From positions 6,281,501-6,345,500 of the forward strand of contig NZ_CP030771.1 of the NCBI RefSeq assembly GCF_006088715.1: DNA of 64,000 nucleotides, given 5' to 3'. The notes under the pieces are model-generated. The model was not told the origin of the DNA. It made no database searches and saw nothing but the letters and a program-made list of their open reading frames with translations. This DNA comes from Streptomyces sp. YIM 121038. GTDB taxonomy: Bacteria; Actinomycetota; Actinomycetes; Streptomycetales; Streptomycetaceae. The position numbers and the translations under genes were made by a program. Positions 16,159 through 55,022 of the stretch are shown here, in pieces; the first letter of the stretch is position 1, and the number at the start of each line of letters is the position of its first letter.

Positions 16159-16505
16159 TTGGTGTACCCGCTCAGAACCGGACAGGACTAGCCCACGATC
16201 AGCCGCCCGTGATCCAGATTCAGTCACGTAAGGGGATGTTCTCGGCACGCTGGGGTAGTGAATGGCGCAAATGTGTTCCCTGAACGGTCAGTTGTGGTGC
16301 TGAATGGAAAGCGCGGGGATACGCAACGGCGCGCGCCCGGCACGGCAACAGGGGCGTGGGCCTCAGCGCGGTCGAGAGGGGTTTGTTCGTGCCTGCTTCC
16401 TCACACAGCACTTCACAGTCGGACTGGGCGACACGTGCCGCGGCACGCGTTCCGGCATATGCAGCGGAACGCGTCCCGAGGCAACGACAGAAGCCGTCCG
16501 AGTCG
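16159..16505. other. gene-free leader upstream of the sesquiterpene synthase
   Basis: These 347 bases contain no convincing gene. The terpene synthase frame stays open back to about 16356, but the residues there are not conserved in family members as I remember them, so the stretch is treated as leader. It must contain the cluster promoter; I see no strong vegetative promoter pair and name none. Confidence 0.4.
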
Positions 16506-17618
16506 ATGCACTCACCAGTTCGACAGGCGGTATCGGTGCCGCCCGCACTGGCCCTTCCGGTGGTGGAGTCGGAGTTTCCCCGGCATCTGCATCCGTATTG
16601 GCCAAAGCTTCAGGAGAAGTCCCGGGCGTGGCTCCTGGAAAAGCGCCTCATGCCCCCGGACAAGGTCGCGGCATATGCCGACAGCCTGTGCTACACGGAC
16701 TTGGTGGCCGGGTACTACATCGGGGCCCCCGATGCGCTGCTCGCCGCCATCGCGGACCTCAGCTCGTGGTTCTTCGGCTGGGACGACCGGCACGACCGGG
16801 ACGCGGTGCACGGCAGGACCGCGGGCTGGCGGCACCTGTGCGTCGGCCTGCACGAGACACTCCAGGACCCGCACGCGCAGCTGCACCACAAGGACCCCCT
16901 GGTCGCGGGGTTCGCAGACTGTGTCCTGAGGCTGTACGCGCACCTCGGGCCGCGGTGGAACGCGCGCTTCGCCCGGCACTTCCACCCGGTGATCGACGCC
17001 TACGACCACGAGTTCGGCAACCGCCGCACCGGGACGGTGCCGAGCGTCGAGGCGTACGTCGAGCTGCGCCGGCTCACCTTCGCGCACTGGGTCTGGATCG
17101 ACCTGCTCGAACCCACCGCGCGCCAGGAACTGCCGGACGCGGTGCGGAAACACCCCGCCTATCGCGCGGCGGCACTCGCGACCCAGGATTTCTCCGCCTG
17201 GTACAACGACCTCTGCTCGCTGCCGAAGGAATTGGCGGGAGACGAGGTGCACAACCTCGGAATTTCCCTCATCCACCATGAAGGTCTTTCGTTGCAGCAG
17301 GCGGTGGCGGAAGTGCACCGGCGCGTCAGTGACTGTGTAACTGATTTTCTCGCGGTGGAACCGGAAGTACTGGGTCTGGCGGATGAATTGATCGACGGCA
17401 GCGCGGCGGGCAGGAAGGCGAGTGCCGCGCTGCAATCCTGCGTCTTCAACATGCGGAACTGGTTCAGTTCCGTCTACTGGTTCCACCACGAATCCGGCAG
17501 ATATCGCGTCGACAACTGGGACGACCGATCCTTGCCCCCGTACGTGTCCGACGCTCCGGGACCCGAGCTCCCGGAATGTGAATTGGCAGGCCCCGAACTG
17601 GCAGGAGGCCAGGAATGA
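16506..17618 (+). CDS. cyc2: epi-isozizaene synthase (class I sesquiterpene cyclase)
   Basis: The 370-residue protein cyclises farnesyl diphosphate to the tricyclic hydrocarbon epi-isozizaene, the albaflavenone precursor. The aspartate-rich motif DDRHD (93-97) and the NSE motif NDLCSLPKE (234-242) supply the three magnesium sites; ELRRLTFAHW and the terminal NMRNWFSSVYWFHHESGRY agree closely with the S. coelicolor enzyme as I recall it. The ATG at 16506 gives a length near the known 361. No strong ribosome site is visible. The stop overlaps the P450 start (ATGA). Confidence 0.92.
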   Translation: MHSPVRQAVSVPPALALPVVESEFPRHLHPYWPKLQEKSRAWLLEKRLMPPDKVAAYADSLCYTDLVAGYYIGAPDALLAAIADLSSWFFGWDDRHDRDAVHGRTAGWRHLCVGLHETLQDPHAQLHHKDPLVAGFADCVLRLYAHLGPRWNARFARHFHPVIDAYDHEFGNRRTGTVPSVEAYVELRRLTFAHWVWIDLLEPTARQELPDAVRKHPAYRAAALATQDFSAWYNDLCSLPKELAGDEVHNLGISLIHHEGLSLQQAVAEVHRRVSDCVTDFLAVEPEVLGLADELIDGSAAGRKASAALQSCVFNMRNWFSSVYWFHHESGRYRVDNWDDRSLPPYVSDAPGPELPECELAGPELAGGQE

Positions 17619-49581: not shown

Positions 49582-52179
49582 CTACGCGGTCAGCTTGCGC
49601 ATCAGACGGACTCCTTGGGCTGCCGACAGGTGCGGCAGATATGCCTTGCCGATCGCGCGCGTGATGCTCGGAAGCGCCGCGGGATCGGGGTAGCACATGT
49701 ACATCGGGTGGTACTCGGGCTGGAACTTGGCTTTGAAGTGGAGCAGGGAGCGGAAGCCGTATACGGGCTCCAGGGCGCGGCCCGCGCAGTCGAGGAGCCG
49801 TTGCAGCGCGGCAGTGGGTTCCGCGGCGTCGGCGCGGGCGAGCGGAGCGCCCGACAGGCTCAGGAACTGGGCGCCTTCCTCCTGGAACCCCAGGGCGGCG
49901 GACGCGATCAAGAACTCCATCACACCCCGGAACCCGTCCGACCGCCTCCGCATGAAGTCAAGGGTCCACCCCACGGGTTGGCCTGAATCGTATGCCCCAT
50001 TTGCTCCATGGACGGGCATCCAGCTCGTCACGCCGTGCACCGTGCGGCGCTCGTCGACCGCCAGGAGACAGCGCACGTGCGGATCGTCGAGTTCGGCGAG
50101 GCCCCCGAGCGTGAAGCCCATCTCCGGCAGCCCCTTGTCGGCGACCCACTCCTCGGAGATCGAGCGGATCTGGTCCGTGAGGTCCAGGGGCGCCTCGGGG
50201 AAGACGTGCCACTCGGCGGTGATGCCCTGCTTCTTGGCCTTGTTCAGGGCGGTGCGCACGTCCTGCCACTTCTTGCCGGTGAACGCGAGGTCCGGCAGCG
50301 GTACGACGGTGTCCTCGGCGACCTGCACCGCGCTCCAGCCGAACGCGTCCGTGCGGGCCTTGGTGGCGGCGGTGACGCTGTAGAAGCACGGGGTCAGGCC
50401 GTGCTCGTCGCAGAAGGCGGCGAACCCCTCGACCGCGTCCCCGCGCGCGGAGGGCACGCCGAACGGGTCACCCGTGGTGAGCGCGACCGTGGACCGCACC
50501 CGGTAGGCGACCGCGGCCCTGCCGTCGGCGGTGAACCAGTAGTCGTTGCCGTCCCACATCGCCAGGTACGACAACGTGCCGCCGCCCTGCGTGGTGAGCA
50601 GGGCACGCGCGCGTGCCGCCGCGCCCGCGTCGTGGCGTACCGAAGGCCGCCGGAACGCCACGAGAAGAGCGACCAGGGCGACCACCCAGAAGACCACGCC
50701 GCAGTACTCGTACAGGGACAGCGCCGTGCCGCCGACCGGCACCGGGGAGCTGCCCCTGAAGAACAGCGGTTCGTAGCTGGGCGGCAGGAACTGCGCGGGC
50801 AGCCCCGCGACGAGCCGCCCGAAGGTGGCGTCCGGGGCGAACTGGTCGCGCACCGCGTAGCCGATGCCCACGTAGGCGGCGCAGCAGAGCAGCAGCGTCC
50901 CGCCGATGACCCCGGTCAGCGTCGTCACGGCGGCGCGGCCGAGGCGCTGGTCGAAGCGTCGGCGGGTCCCCAGGAGCAGCACCAGCACGAACAGGGGGAG
51001 CAGCGCCTGCTCGACCACCGCCTGGACCATCGCCGCCTTCCGGTCGGCGGCCTCGCTCCCTTCGAGGACGTAGTGGCCGGGGTGCGCGGTGATGTCGCTC
51101 AGGAGGTACGCCATGAGGACGAGCCACACCAGGTGCGCGGCCACCGCGATCCGCCAGGCGGGCCGCAGCCCGCGGCGCAGCCCTTCGGCGAGGACGAGGA
51201 GCAGCAGGGGGATGGCGACGCCCATGAGCATCGCCGGAGAGCCGTAGAAGCGGTCCTGGGCGCGCACGCGGGCGCAGTCGGGGCCGGGCCCGGCACAGGC
51301 GTCGGCGATCTCCTGGGGGTCCGGCCCTCCGGAGACGTACAGGTCGAGCACGTCGAAGGGGCCGAGCGCGTCCCTGTAGAGGGTGGCGATCAGAGGGCCG
51401 AGGGCCGAGGCCGCGACGGTGAGGGCCACCAGGACGCGACCCTCGGTGTGCGAGGCGTGGGGCACGCGCAGCCGGCGCGCGTCCCGGTGCGCGAGCGCGC
51501 CCAGGGCGAGGCCCACGACCGTGCCCGCGAACCGCAGCACGTCCTGGAGGTGTCCTACGTAGAGGGCGAGCGTCAGCGGGAACACGATCAGCGCGAGCTG
51601 GAGCCTGCGCCGCCACAGGGCGCTCAGCCGGAAGCTCAGGAAGGCGCCCACCGCGCAGGCCGCGATGCCCGGTGTCGCGGTGAGCTCCTGGGCGAGCGCG
51701 GTGGGCCAGTCGTCGCCCGCCAGCTCGCTGACCTTGACCGCGCCGGTGCCGAGCAGCGCCCCGAGCACCTGGCCGACGACGAGGAGCACGGCGGTGCGCA
51801 CGGAGCCCATACGGATCTCGGCGGCCGGGCCGATCAGCAGCAACAGCAGCGTGGACCCCACGTAGTTGCCGATTCCGGAGCACCACAGGATCGAGGTGAG
51901 GGGCGTCCACCAGCGGCCCTCGGCGAGCGCGGGCACGCCCACGCCGACATCGGAGAGCAGCCTGTCGGCGGGCCCTCCGCCGAGGCTGCCGGTGAACAGG
52001 CCGACGGCCCACAGGGCCACGACGAGGAACACCGTCACGGGCGCGTGGCTCACCGGCGCGAAGGCGCGTTCGGCGGCGCGCAACCAGCGCAGGGGCCCCC
52101 GCTCGCCCGGCGGCGCGAGCGGCGGCCCCTGCGCCGGCTCCGTGGCGGCGGCGCCCGCCGGGCCCTCGGGGGTGCTCAT
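49582..52179 (-). CDS. rhomboid-like/DUF2156 (MprF C-domain) membrane protein
   Basis: The 865-residue protein has a rhomboid-like N-terminal membrane block (about 40-260), further helices to about 540 and a soluble C-terminal GNAT-fold domain (about 560-865) of the DUF2156 class found in lysyl-phosphatidylglycerol synthases: [49 protein letters not shown] and [16 protein letters not shown]. It probably transfers an aminoacyl group from tRNA to a membrane lipid. No GxSG serine is evident where the rhomboid nucleophile is expected ([16 protein letters not shown]), so proteolysis is unlikely. Divergent from the encapsulin. Confidence 0.82.
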
Positions 52180-52409: not shown

Positions 52410-53816
52410 ATGTCGGTAGGCGAAGAAATCCGTACGGACGAAGACAGGCCGCAGCAGAGTCTCGGCACTTCTGCCGCGCGGAATCTGGCCACCACCACCA
52501 AGTCCGCGCCGCAGATGCAGGAGATCAGCTCGCGCTGGCTGCTGCGGATGCTGCCCTGGGTCCAGGTGCAGGGCGGCACGTACCGAGTGAACCGAAGGAC
52601 GAGTTACTCGGTCGGTGACGGGCGGGTCACGTTCATCAAGACAGGGGACCGCGTCGAGGTCATCCCGGCCGAGCTCGGCGAGCTGCCGGTGCTGCGGGAC
52701 TTCGAGGACCAGGACGTGCTCGCGGAGCTGGCACAGCGCTGCCAGCAGCGGGAGTTCGAGGCCGGTGCGGTGCTCGCGTCCTTCGGCAGCCAGGCGGACG
52801 AGGTGTTCCTGCTGGCCCACGGCCGCGTCGAGCAGATCGGCACCGGCCCCTACGGCGACGACACGGTCCTCGCCACCCTCGCCGACGGTGCTTACTTCGG
52901 TGACCATGCGCTGATCGATGCGGAGACCATCTGGGAGTACACCGTCCGCGCGGTGACCGCGTGCACGGTCCTCACGCTCCCGCGCCAGGACCTGGAGCAG
53001 GTCGCGGAGCGCTCCGAGTCCCTGCGCGCCCACCTCCAGGGAGTGCGGTCCGTCCCGTCCCAGCGCACCAACGACTACGGAGAGGCGGCCATCGACCTCT
53101 CCGCGGGCCACGTCGGCGAGGCCGTCCTGCCCGGCACCTACGTGGACTACGAGGCGAGGCCGCGCGAGTACGAACTGAGCGTCGCCCAGACGGTCCTGCG
53201 CATCCACACGCGCGTGGCGGACCTCTACAACCAGCCGATGAACCAGACCGAGGAGCAGCTGCGCCTCACCGTGGAGGCGCTGAAGGAGCGCCAGGAGCAC
53301 GAACTCATCAACAACCGCGAGTTCGGACTGCTCAACAACTGCGAGTACGACCAGCGGATCCAGCCGCACGACGGCGTACCCAGCCCGGACGACCTGGACG
53401 AACTGCTCAGCCGCAGGCGCGGATCGAAGCTGTTCCTCGCCCACCCGCGCGCGATCGCCGCGTTCGGCCGCGAGTGCAACAAGCGCGGACTCGTCCCGGA
53501 GACCATCGACATGTCCGGGCACCGCATCCCGACCTGGCGCGGTGTGCCGATCTTCCCGTGCAACAAGATCCCGGTGACCGAGGCCCGCACCTCCTCGATC
53601 ATCTGCATGCGTACGGGCGAGGACGAGCAGGGCGTCATCGGGCTGCACCAGGCGGGCATCCCGGACGAGATCGAGCCGAGCCTGTCCGTGCGCTTCATGG
53701 GCATCAGCGAGCAGGCGATCATCTCCTACCTGGTCTCGACGTACTACTCGGCGGCCGTCCTGGTTCCGGACGCGCTCGGCGTCCTGGAGAACGTCGAGAT
53801 CGGCCGCTGGAGGTGA
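52410..53816 (+). CDS. Family 2B encapsulin shell protein (EshA-like, cNMP-domain)
   Basis: This 468-residue protein belongs to the SrpI/EshA family now recognised as HK97-fold encapsulins. The N-terminal arm contains [13 protein letters not shown] (about 51-63); a cyclic-nucleotide-binding-like domain spans about 95-210 with the cassette [10 protein letters not shown] and [15 protein letters not shown]; the HK97 part fills about 220-468 (DEVEP-like [19 protein letters not shown] and the terminal [20 protein letters not shown]). Such proteins self-assemble into about 24-30-nm shells. GGGAGGG precedes the ATG. The next gene, 129 bp downstream, is a polyprenyl synthase, a known Family 2B cargo class. 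Confidence 0.88.
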
Positions 53817-53945
53817 CCCGCCGCCCCTGCCCGTGGGGACAGCGCCGCCGCCCGTGTCCCTTGCAGCGACGCCGGGCACACCCGTCCTGCACGCGCCCGG
53901 AGACCAAGGACCGGCCACCGTCCGCCTCCACGCCGGAGTAGGTCC

Positions 53946-55022
53946 ATGACGGACACCACGGACGTGACGGAGCGCGTGCGGGCACCCCGGAGCCACGGCC
54001 CTCCGGAAGGGGGCGAGGCGGCGGACATCCTCGCCGGGGCCCGCGGGTGCGTCGACCCGGAGCTGCGCCGTGCCGTTGAGTCGCTGCCCGGTTCGATGCG
54101 CCGCGTCGCGCTCTACCACTTCGGCTGGGAGCGCGCGGACGGCACGCCCGCGGCGGGAGACGCGGGCAAGGCCATCCGGCCCGCGCTCGTCCTGGCCGCG
54201 GTGCGGGCGCTCGGCGGCGATCCGCGCGCGGCCGTCCGGGCGGCGGCGGCCGTGGAGTTGACCCACCACTTCACGCTGCTGCACGACGACGTCATGGACC
54301 GGGGCGCCACCCGTGGGCGCCGTCCCACCGCGTGGACCGTGTTCGGCGACGCCGACGCGATCCTCGCGGGGGACGCCCTCCAGGACCTGGCACAGCGGCT
54401 GCTCGCCGAGGACCCCCACCCGGGGGCCGCGGTGGCCGCCACCCGCCTGGCCGCCTGCGTCGTGGAACTGTGCGCCGGGCAGCGGGCGGACCGCGCCCTG
54501 GAGCGGCGCGCCCCCGGGGAGGTCTCGCTCGCCGAGTGCCTCGCCACGGCCGAAGCCAGGACCGGGGCGCTGCTCGGCTGCGCCTGTGCGATCGGGGCGG
54601 TGTACGCGGGCGCGGGCGTGGAGACCGCCGATGCCCTCGACGGGTTCGGGAGGCAGGCCGGGCTCGCCTTCCGGCTCATCGACGACGTGATCGGGATCTG
54701 GGGAGATCCCGCACGCACGGGCAGGCCCGGGTGGGCGGACCTCGCGGCTCGCAGGAAGTCGCTGCCGGTGGTCGCCGCGCTCGCCTCCGGCACCCCGGAC
54801 GGCGCAGCCCTGGCCGTGCTGTACGACCGTAGGGCGCGGACGGGAGACCTGGACCGGATGGCCCGCGCGGTCGAGGGCGCCGGAGGGCGGGACTGGGCGC
54901 AGGCGCAGGCCGCCGACCGGATGTCCCGCGCCCTGCAGGAGGTCGCCCGCGCGGTGCCGGACCCCGAGCGGGCGGGGGGTCTGCTGACGCTCGCGGAGTT
55001 CGTCACCCGGCGATCCCACTGA
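53946..55022 (+). CDS. polyprenyl diphosphate synthase, probable encapsulin cargo
   Basis: The 358-residue class I isoprenyl synthase has KAIRPALVLAAV, the first aspartate-rich motif LLHDDVMDRG and the second DDVIGIWGD, where the last Asp of DDxxD is replaced by Gly, as in some bacterial geranylgeranyl-type synthases. The first 35 residues (rich in Thr, Pro, Gly) look disordered and could carry the encapsulation signal. It follows the Family 2B encapsulin on the same strand, the arrangement known for polyprenyl-transferase cargo. Chain length cannot be read from sequence. Confidence 0.88.
   Translation: MTDTTDVTERVRAPRSHGPPEGGEAADILAGARGCVDPELRRAVESLPGSMRRVALYHFGWERADGTPAAGDAGKAIRPALVLAAVRALGGDPRAAVRAAAAVELTHHFTLLHDDVMDRGATRGRRPTAWTVFGDADAILAGDALQDLAQRLLAEDPHPGAAVAATRLAACVVELCAGQRADRALERRAPGEVSLAECLATAEARTGALLGCACAIGAVYAGAGVETADALDGFGRQAGLAFRLIDDVIGIWGDPARTGRPGWADLAARRKSLPVVAALASGTPDGAALAVLYDRRARTGDLDRMARAVEGAGGRDWAQAQAADRMSRALQEVARAVPDPERAGGLLTLAEFVTRRSH

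Follow-up and report, generated by a model that had tools for sequence, protein, structure and literature searches.

The shell and polyprenyl synthase genes of the locus

The stretch of DNA analyzed here (henceforth, the window) comprises 64,000 nucleotides of Streptomyces sp. YIM 121038 (G000, contig C1, positions 6281501-6345500), whose genome of 11.1 Mb is made of two contigs. It contains a gene for a Family 2B encapsulin shell and, downstream on the same strand, a gene for a polyprenyl diphosphate synthase (PT). A previous sequence-only reading had interpreted the pair as an isoprenoid nanocompartment, in which a shell with a ligand-sensing domain takes in the PT by means of the first 35 residues of the latter. 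The relevant features are listed in Table 1.

Both gene assignments withstood scrutiny. The shell protein matches NF041163, the model for Family 2B shells, over residues 17-466 (784.7 bits, with a cut-off of 400) and the SrpI-like Pfam family PF19307 (463 bits). Nearly its whole length is also matched by three solved chains: 9bhu_A, 9bje_A and 9bix_A (678, 638 and 622 bits). The HK97 fold is predicted for the shell by homology to these solved proteins. An AF2 model built from 25 sequences, in which orthologues are 76-97% identical, reached a pLDDT of 50.3 and is too weak to judge the fold. The start codon was placed at the ATG at 52410 and the end at 53816; the mechanical open reading frame (ORF) begins earlier, at a GTG (52299).

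The next co-directional gene encodes a protein that matches PF00348 with 150 bits. Its score against NF041169, the model for ‘family 2 encapsulin cargo polyprenyl transferase’, is 438 bits, just below the cut-off of 450. The AF2 model of the PT (pLDDT 84.5) is nearly all helical, and its best solved match (235 bits) is 3nf2, a ‘putative polyprenyl synthetase’ which we take to come from S. coelicolor. By the motif rule, the enzyme would presumably build C15-C20 chains. A scan of the locus for sigma-70 promoters and terminators yielded nothing informative.

Table 1. Features of the shell-PT locus (window coordinates; residue numbers refer to the encoded protein).
Feature	Coordinates	Strand	Basis or remark
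Family 2B encapsulin shell, taken as EshB type, 468 aa	52410..53816	+	NF041163, SrpI-like PF19307, PDB chains
Conserved N-arm of the shell (residues 15-31), with LGTSAAR in common with the cargo consensus GPTGLGTSAAR	52452..52502	+	25-shell alignment, N-arm survey
Cyclic-nucleotide-binding-like insertion (CBD), shell residues 114-201	52749..53012	+	PF00027, Pfam envelope
Predicted HK97-fold (SrpI-like) domain, shell residues 216-466	53055..53807	+	PF19307; homology to solved shells
Intergenic gap between shell and PT, 129 bp	53817..53945	+	Scan showed no sign of a terminator on the + strand
Polyprenyl diphosphate synthase (PT), putative cargo or partner, 358 aa	53946..55022	+	PF00348, NF041169, AF2
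Disordered N-terminal tail of PT, residues 1-22	53946..54011	+	pLDDT <50 at residues 1-21; helix A at 23-45
First Asp-rich motif DDVMD, PT residues 114-118	54285..54299	+	Intact
RGR, PT residues 123-125, R124 replaced by Gly	54312..54320	+	RR in 118/118 readable of 120 homologues
Second Asp-rich motif DDVIG, PT residues 246-250, intact; preceded by R243, Gln in nearly all relatives	54681..54695	+	

Conservation of the shell-PT pair

Conservation was examined in 61 genomes of the genus (60 drawn plus the window's own) and in a set of named loci, the best 80 of 588 PT-anchored loci from the PT alignment search, nearly all of which belong to Streptomyces. A PT above the NF041169 cut-off was found in 45/61 genomes, and a shell above its own cut-off in 60/61. 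When the window's own PT was added to these 45, a co-directional shell gene was found 51-472 bp upstream of the PT in 46/46 cases, which places the pair in 46/61 genomes. Among the named loci the shell stands beside the PT in 79/80, the exception being a PT at a contig edge (L088). The flanks are shared as well: a pyridoxal phosphate (PLP)-dependent enzyme is encoded in 74/80 loci, an amidase in 57/80 and a GNAT protein in 49/80. The pairing of shell and PT is far beyond chance. Queries for 2-methylisoborneol (2-MIB)-type cyclases, geosmin synthase and cysteine desulfurase found no match next to the pair in any of the 80 loci, whose flanks extend to at most 8 kb.

The window locus is an ordinary, conserved example of a class already catalogued. 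Many of the 120 listed PT homologues carry the NCBI label ‘family 2 encapsulin cargo polyprenyl transferase’. Andreas and Giessen catalogued in 2021 a total of 900 PT operons with Family 2B shells, 888 of them in Actinobacteria, and regarded the PT as a putative cargo class (PMC8346489). A paper in eLife likewise ranks polyprenyl diphosphate synthase first in frequency among the neighbours of Family 2b shells (PMC8049743). The proposal that such loci represent a form of metabolic compartmentalisation was made in 2021 (PMC8346489) and is not new.

The two genes can, nonetheless, come apart. In G005 (locus L163) a 78%-identical EshB-type shell is still found at the usual site and the PT is absent. 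The supposition that loss of the PT always entails loss of the eshB shell is rejected by this case: a shell can outlive its PT. G005 is one of 15 genomes, besides the window's own, that lack a cargo-grade PT. Shells that stand beside a geosmin-synthase-like cyclase, with no PT, were detected in G049 (79% identical), G042 (69%) and G009 (74%). In G007, shell and geosmin synthase are both absent at the thresholds applied.

A gene for an MprF/LysX-like lysyl-phosphatidylglycerol synthase lies between the shell and the amidase genes (window 49582-52179). It was considered as a component of the system and rejected because it is found in 1/80 related loci.

The N-terminal tail of the polyprenyl synthase

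The AF2 model supports the existence of a disordered N-terminus in the PT, but its length is about 22 residues, not 35. This has a practical side, as deletion of the first 35 residues had been suggested as a loading test: such a deletion would take about 13 residues of helix A and damage the fold.

When other members of the family were examined, the tails proved to be variable in length, with long ones in some relatives. Since tail lengths rest on guessed starts, the in-frame stop was used as a hard upper bound in 79 loci. The longest possible in-frame tail has at most 15 residues in 10/79 loci and at most 23 in 13/79; best-guess tails in the same 79 loci range from 3 to 192 residues (median 28). 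L044 was omitted from one locus comparison because no start was found. Among the matches listed (120 PT homologues of 5765), annotated tails could be measured in 107/120; they range from 3 to 60 residues, with a median of 31, and have at least 50 in 13/107.

A family-wide N-terminal motif was sought in the PTs and rejected: only MTxT starts and the start of helix A (EAA..LLER) recur. The Family 2B cargo motif is near-absent, with 3 weak matches in 111 upstream regions and 2 in 120 tails. In one PT subclade, the MGEF that precedes MTETKQ may be the ribosome-binding site of a second ATG. The 2021 survey likewise reports no PT targeting motif, and describes PT N-termini that are disordered over 50-100 residues (PMC8346489). 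The window locus resembles the operons of that survey in having a CBD-like shell, in carrying the PT in an operon and in belonging to Actinobacteria. It differs from them in its 22-residue tail and in a PT that has drifted and falls below the NCBIfam cut-off.

Altogether, tails that are short, variable and devoid of motif indicate that a long N-terminal loading domain is not a constant trait of this PT clade, and the class may not be loaded by such a domain. Packaging of the PT in the shell is plausible; the signal proposed to reside in its first 35 residues is weak.

Drift of conserved PT positions in the window lineage

Conserved positions were analyzed in an alignment of 201 PT sequences (the window's and 200 others), in which conservation reaches 95% or more at 185 columns. 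The window PT differs at 10 of them and P0007, a PT 96% identical to it, at 12. These are the two highest values of the 201, and the median is 1. The PT of L053, 91% identical to that of the window, departs at 1 column. The changes include N108H, D120G, R124G, H125R, K205R, Q243R, K260R and K270R (window 54267-54757). We take D120, R124, K205, Q243, K260 and K270 to lie near the substrate-binding motifs. The solved protein 3nf2 keeps Asn108, Asp120, Arg124, His125, Lys205, Gln243, Lys260 and Lys270, all of which are changed in the window PT. Sequencing error is an unlikely source of the drift, as 8/10 changes are common to P0007; R124G and A147D are not shared by P0007 in that form.

When the locus set was analyzed alone, the window PT departed at 13/180 columns, with a maximum of 7 in any other PT, and the window shell at 3/269, with a maximum of 8 in any shell. 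The ratio of nonsynonymous to synonymous divergence (dN/dS) between the window and L053 is highest for the PT (0.31), followed by the GNAT gene (0.27), the amidase (0.16) and the shell (0.11). With L054 as outgroup, dN is 0.103 for the window and 0.083 for L053. Loss of PT activity in the window lineage is a hypothesis only, and both Asp-rich motifs are intact. Synthesis of prenyl diphosphates, which had been assumed for this locus, is uncertain in this strain given the drift of conserved positions.

Type of the shell and comparison with known systems

Four full Family 2B shells are encoded on contig C1, at 6.334M (the window shell), 9.751M (L019), 4.734M (L020) and 7.903M (L021). The L019 shell, of EshA type, adjoins a 2-MIB-type terpene cyclase (cargo2 model, 495 bits; cut-off 400). 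The L021 shell adjoins a cysteine desulfurase, and the L020 shell lies near dnaX with no recognised cargo. Because the EshA-type shell of the genome sits beside the 2-MIB-type cyclase, the window shell was taken as EshB type. Its earlier description as EshA-like differs as to the paralogue, since the EshA-type shell is the one at 9.751 Mb.

The eshA gene of S. venezuelae shares an operon with mibA-mibB (PMC6428758). The S. coelicolor genes are SCO7699 (eshA) and its paralogue SCO5249 (eshB; PMC3878966), and SCO5250 is listed with genes of the terpenoid-precursor pathway (PMC7494193). The pair formed by SCO5249 and SCO5250, which likewise involves the Esh paralogue other than eshA, would be the counterpart of the window pair, an orthology based on locus type and on these papers. 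The system made of EshA and 2-MIB synthase has the shell family in common with the window; however, the cargo linked to the L019 shell has GPSGLGTAA in its N-terminal tail, whereas the window PT has no such motif. The two-component Family 2B shells of S. lydicus share the shell family and the CBD insertion (PMC12407261), but the window locus has one shell gene. Inspection by eye of the motifs that are diagnostic in S. lydicus gave a mixed picture: motif 1 of the window shell (RRRG) is Enc2-like and motif 2 (IDMSGHRIP) is more like that of Enc1. The Sl-Enc1 motif TVWK is found in chain 9bje.

The ligand-sensing domain postulated in the shell is present as a fold family, with a PF00027 (cNMP_binding) match of 63 bits against a cut-off of 27.5. 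Its region is the only well-modelled part of the AF2 shell model (ten-residue pLDDT means of 65-94 over residues 71-210). Alignment by eye indicated that the phosphate-binding cassette has FGD (Asp) and Trp175 instead of the Glu and Arg of the CRP type, which we take to be Glu72 and Arg82 of CRP. The insertion domain of a Family 2B shell has been reported not to bind cyclic nucleotides (PMC12407261). Ligand sensing by the window shell thus appears doubtful. A ligand role of some kind could still be considered because Trp175 is invariant across the 25 aligned shells.

The N-arm of the shell resembles the cargo motif. Its residues are invariant in the 25 aligned shells, except residue 21. N-arms could be read in 92/109 shells, the remainder having no AARNL anchor, and LGT[SA]AAR was found in 83 of the 92. 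The sequence QSLGT[SA]AARNL is near-invariant in PT-linked shells and occurs, with variants, in other shell types. Seven cysteine-desulfurase-linked shells (L021, L285-L290) instead have SL[AGS]P[DE][AS]ARQL, where other shells have mostly SL[GS]TxAAR[NQ]L. One hypothesis is that cargo might dock by mimicry of the N-arm.

Geosmin synthase as a candidate cargo encoded elsewhere

The cargo motif GPTGLGTSAAR has been published for shell-linked cyclases (PMC8346489). Geosmin synthase is encoded in 60/61 Streptomyces genomes, and a listed shell lies within 20 kb on the same contig in only 5/60. For motif analysis we read 110 geosmin synthases, one from each of these 60 genomes and one from each of 50 other actinomycete genomes. 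The second gene of G052, the second match rows of G310, G335, G364, G391 and G447, and other Streptomyces belonging to a larger set of 393 genomes were left out; L252, a broken gene, was counted as a miss. A relaxed cargo motif, a pattern widened after the sequences had been read, occurs in the interdomain linker or the C-tail of 106/110 proteins, compared with about 16 after residue shuffling. The remaining parts of these proteins have 10 matches in 95,083 residues. Shorter cores gave 62/110 for LGT[SA]A (24/60 Streptomyces and 38/50 others; 0.2 expected) and 86/110 for GT[SA]A (47/60 and 39/50; 2.8 expected).

Co-occurrence was then considered in the 393 actinomycete genomes. Geosmin synthase was found in 94, and every one of these has a shell match with E of 1e-60 or lower, above the model cut-off in 92 and as a fragment in 2. 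A shell match without geosmin synthase was found in 25 genomes, 10 below E 1e-200 and 15 near 1e-100, the latter probably Family 2A; neither was found in 274. At the genus level, geosmin synthase occurs in 20/122 genera and shell matches in 27. Outside Streptomyces many of the pairs are linked, and those unlinked on one contig include G269 (about 0.6 Mb apart) and G385 (about 1.2 Mb). In 21 Streptomyces genomes a PT-linked shell is the only one listed, which in drafts of more than 1000 contigs (e.g. G016, G027) means just that; geosmin synthase is present in 21/21 and the relaxed motif in 19/21.

The relaxed motif was also found in 6/9 shell-linked 2-MIB-like cyclases, in the part read. Nine cyclase loci of the window's own genome were considered, of which L171, L172 and L174-L176 were not readable as ORFs; three cyclases, including that of the window, are without the cargo motif, and the 2-MIB-type one has it. 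The window cyclase is a terpene-cyclase-like ORF of 420 aa (16356-17618) about 35 kb from the shell. As a separate observation, the smaller contig C2 (968 kb) holds 11/17 of the PF00348 matches of the genome, which suggests a replicon rich in terpenoid pathways.

Previous work contains related arrangements. Two ‘cnb’ genes come after geoA in cyanobacteria and Deltaproteobacteria, an order not widely conserved in Actinobacteria (PMC7251104), and encapsulins are reported to occur in the geosmin clusters of myxobacteria (PMC12224551). The geoA-linked ‘cnb’ genes are probably Family 2B shells. No statement of trans loading of geosmin synthase or of N-arm mimicry was found in the accessible literature, a scope that excludes bioRxiv and most subscription papers.

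Discussion

The interpretation that we favor is that the window holds an EshB-type Family 2B locus whose PT is a partner of the shell in terpenoid metabolism, with terpene cyclases possibly also received; we consider it an even bet. The shell gene and the downstream PT are held together at a conserved chromosomal site, and the shell would assemble like its solved relatives. The PT may either supply precursors from outside the shell or be located inside it by virtue of a determinant other than a long N-terminal domain. In addition, the shell might take in, in trans, terpene cyclases that bear a GPTGLGTSAAR-type peptide, among which geosmin synthase is the strongest candidate.

Several observations weigh against this interpretation. 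Near-perfect pairing is the usual sign of a native cargo, and the PT may be the main one. The dN/dS of the neighbouring GNAT gene is close enough to that of the PT to make the latter unexceptional on its own. Only 24/60 Streptomyces geosmin synthases contain the published core GLGT, compared with 46/50 of the others (1.1 expected), and a motif that is looser in the very genus in which the gene mostly stands apart from a shell counts against trans loading. All co-occurrence counts are raised by shared descent. Some genomes with geosmin synthase have other Family 2B shells and no EshB-type shell (e.g. G030), so that the enzyme need not depend on EshB; in the window's own genome there are four shells to choose from. 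Furthermore, no experiment on this shell-PT pair was found in the literature.

One alternative is that the true cargo of EshB-type shells is geosmin synthase, which is encoded at another site and would enter through its GPTGLGTSAAR-type peptides, and that the PT is only a precursor supplier. Motif counts far above those of shuffled sequences, co-occurrence with a shell in 94/94 genomes, the sole-shell genomes, the cyclase-linked relatives of the window shell (G049, G042, G009) and the geosmin clusters of other bacteria argue for it. On the other hand, the accessible literature contains no report of geosmin synthase loading, the relaxed pattern was widened post hoc, and 3/9 shell-linked 2-MIB-like cyclases lack it in the part read. 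Many of the cases outside Streptomyces are physically linked, hence no test of trans loading, and other Family 2B shells could serve. We regard this alternative as possible but on the unlikely side.

A second alternative, close to what had been proposed for the locus, is that the shell is dedicated to the PT as its only cargo, recruited through the disordered PT tail into a CBD-gated prenyl-diphosphate factory. The conserved adjacency fits this view, as do the long disordered N-termini and the cargo status that the 2021 survey gives to PTs (PMC8346489). Annotated tails of 50-60 residues in 13/107 homologues, the long end of the best-guess tails and the coding codon bias of the tails (G+C at third codon positions, GC3, of 0.84, compared with 0.79 in the gap) point in the same direction. 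However, the tail is short in the window and in other loci and has no motif; G005 lost its PT and kept the shell at the locus; and PT positions are drifting in the window lineage while the shell is conserved. We therefore judge this alternative unlikely, slightly more so than the previous one. The historical view of EshA, in which the shell protein acts as a regulator of development or in response to a ligand and shell form or cargo are incidental, is in line with the up-regulation of the eshB and eshA promoters during S. coelicolor development (PMC3878966), but appears improbable given that close relatives are solved structures (9bhu, 9bje, 9bix), that the S. lydicus proteins form shells with a domain reported not to bind cyclic nucleotides (PMC12407261), and that the cassette residues are changed in the window shell.

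Two points are new in this analysis: doubt about the entry of the PT by a long tail, and a hint that geosmin synthase, the enzyme behind the earthy smell of geosmin, may enter shells from elsewhere in the genome. Geosmin synthase, an enzyme of 60/61 Streptomyces, has a peptide that resembles the targeting motif of shells to which its gene is mostly not adjacent, and may be a trans-loaded cargo of Family 2B shells. A tentative speculation, which we would not expect to hold in full, is that EshB-type shells might be the geosmin compartment of many streptomycetes: geosmin synthase would be loaded in trans by linker or C-tail peptides that mimic the SLGT[SA]AAR of the N-arm, the PT would feed or accompany it, and the window lineage would retain its shell as the PT loses catalytic function. 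If trans loading is true, it would answer where the shell partner of the actinomycete geosmin synthase is, and would extend the assignment of encapsulin cargo beyond neighbouring genes.

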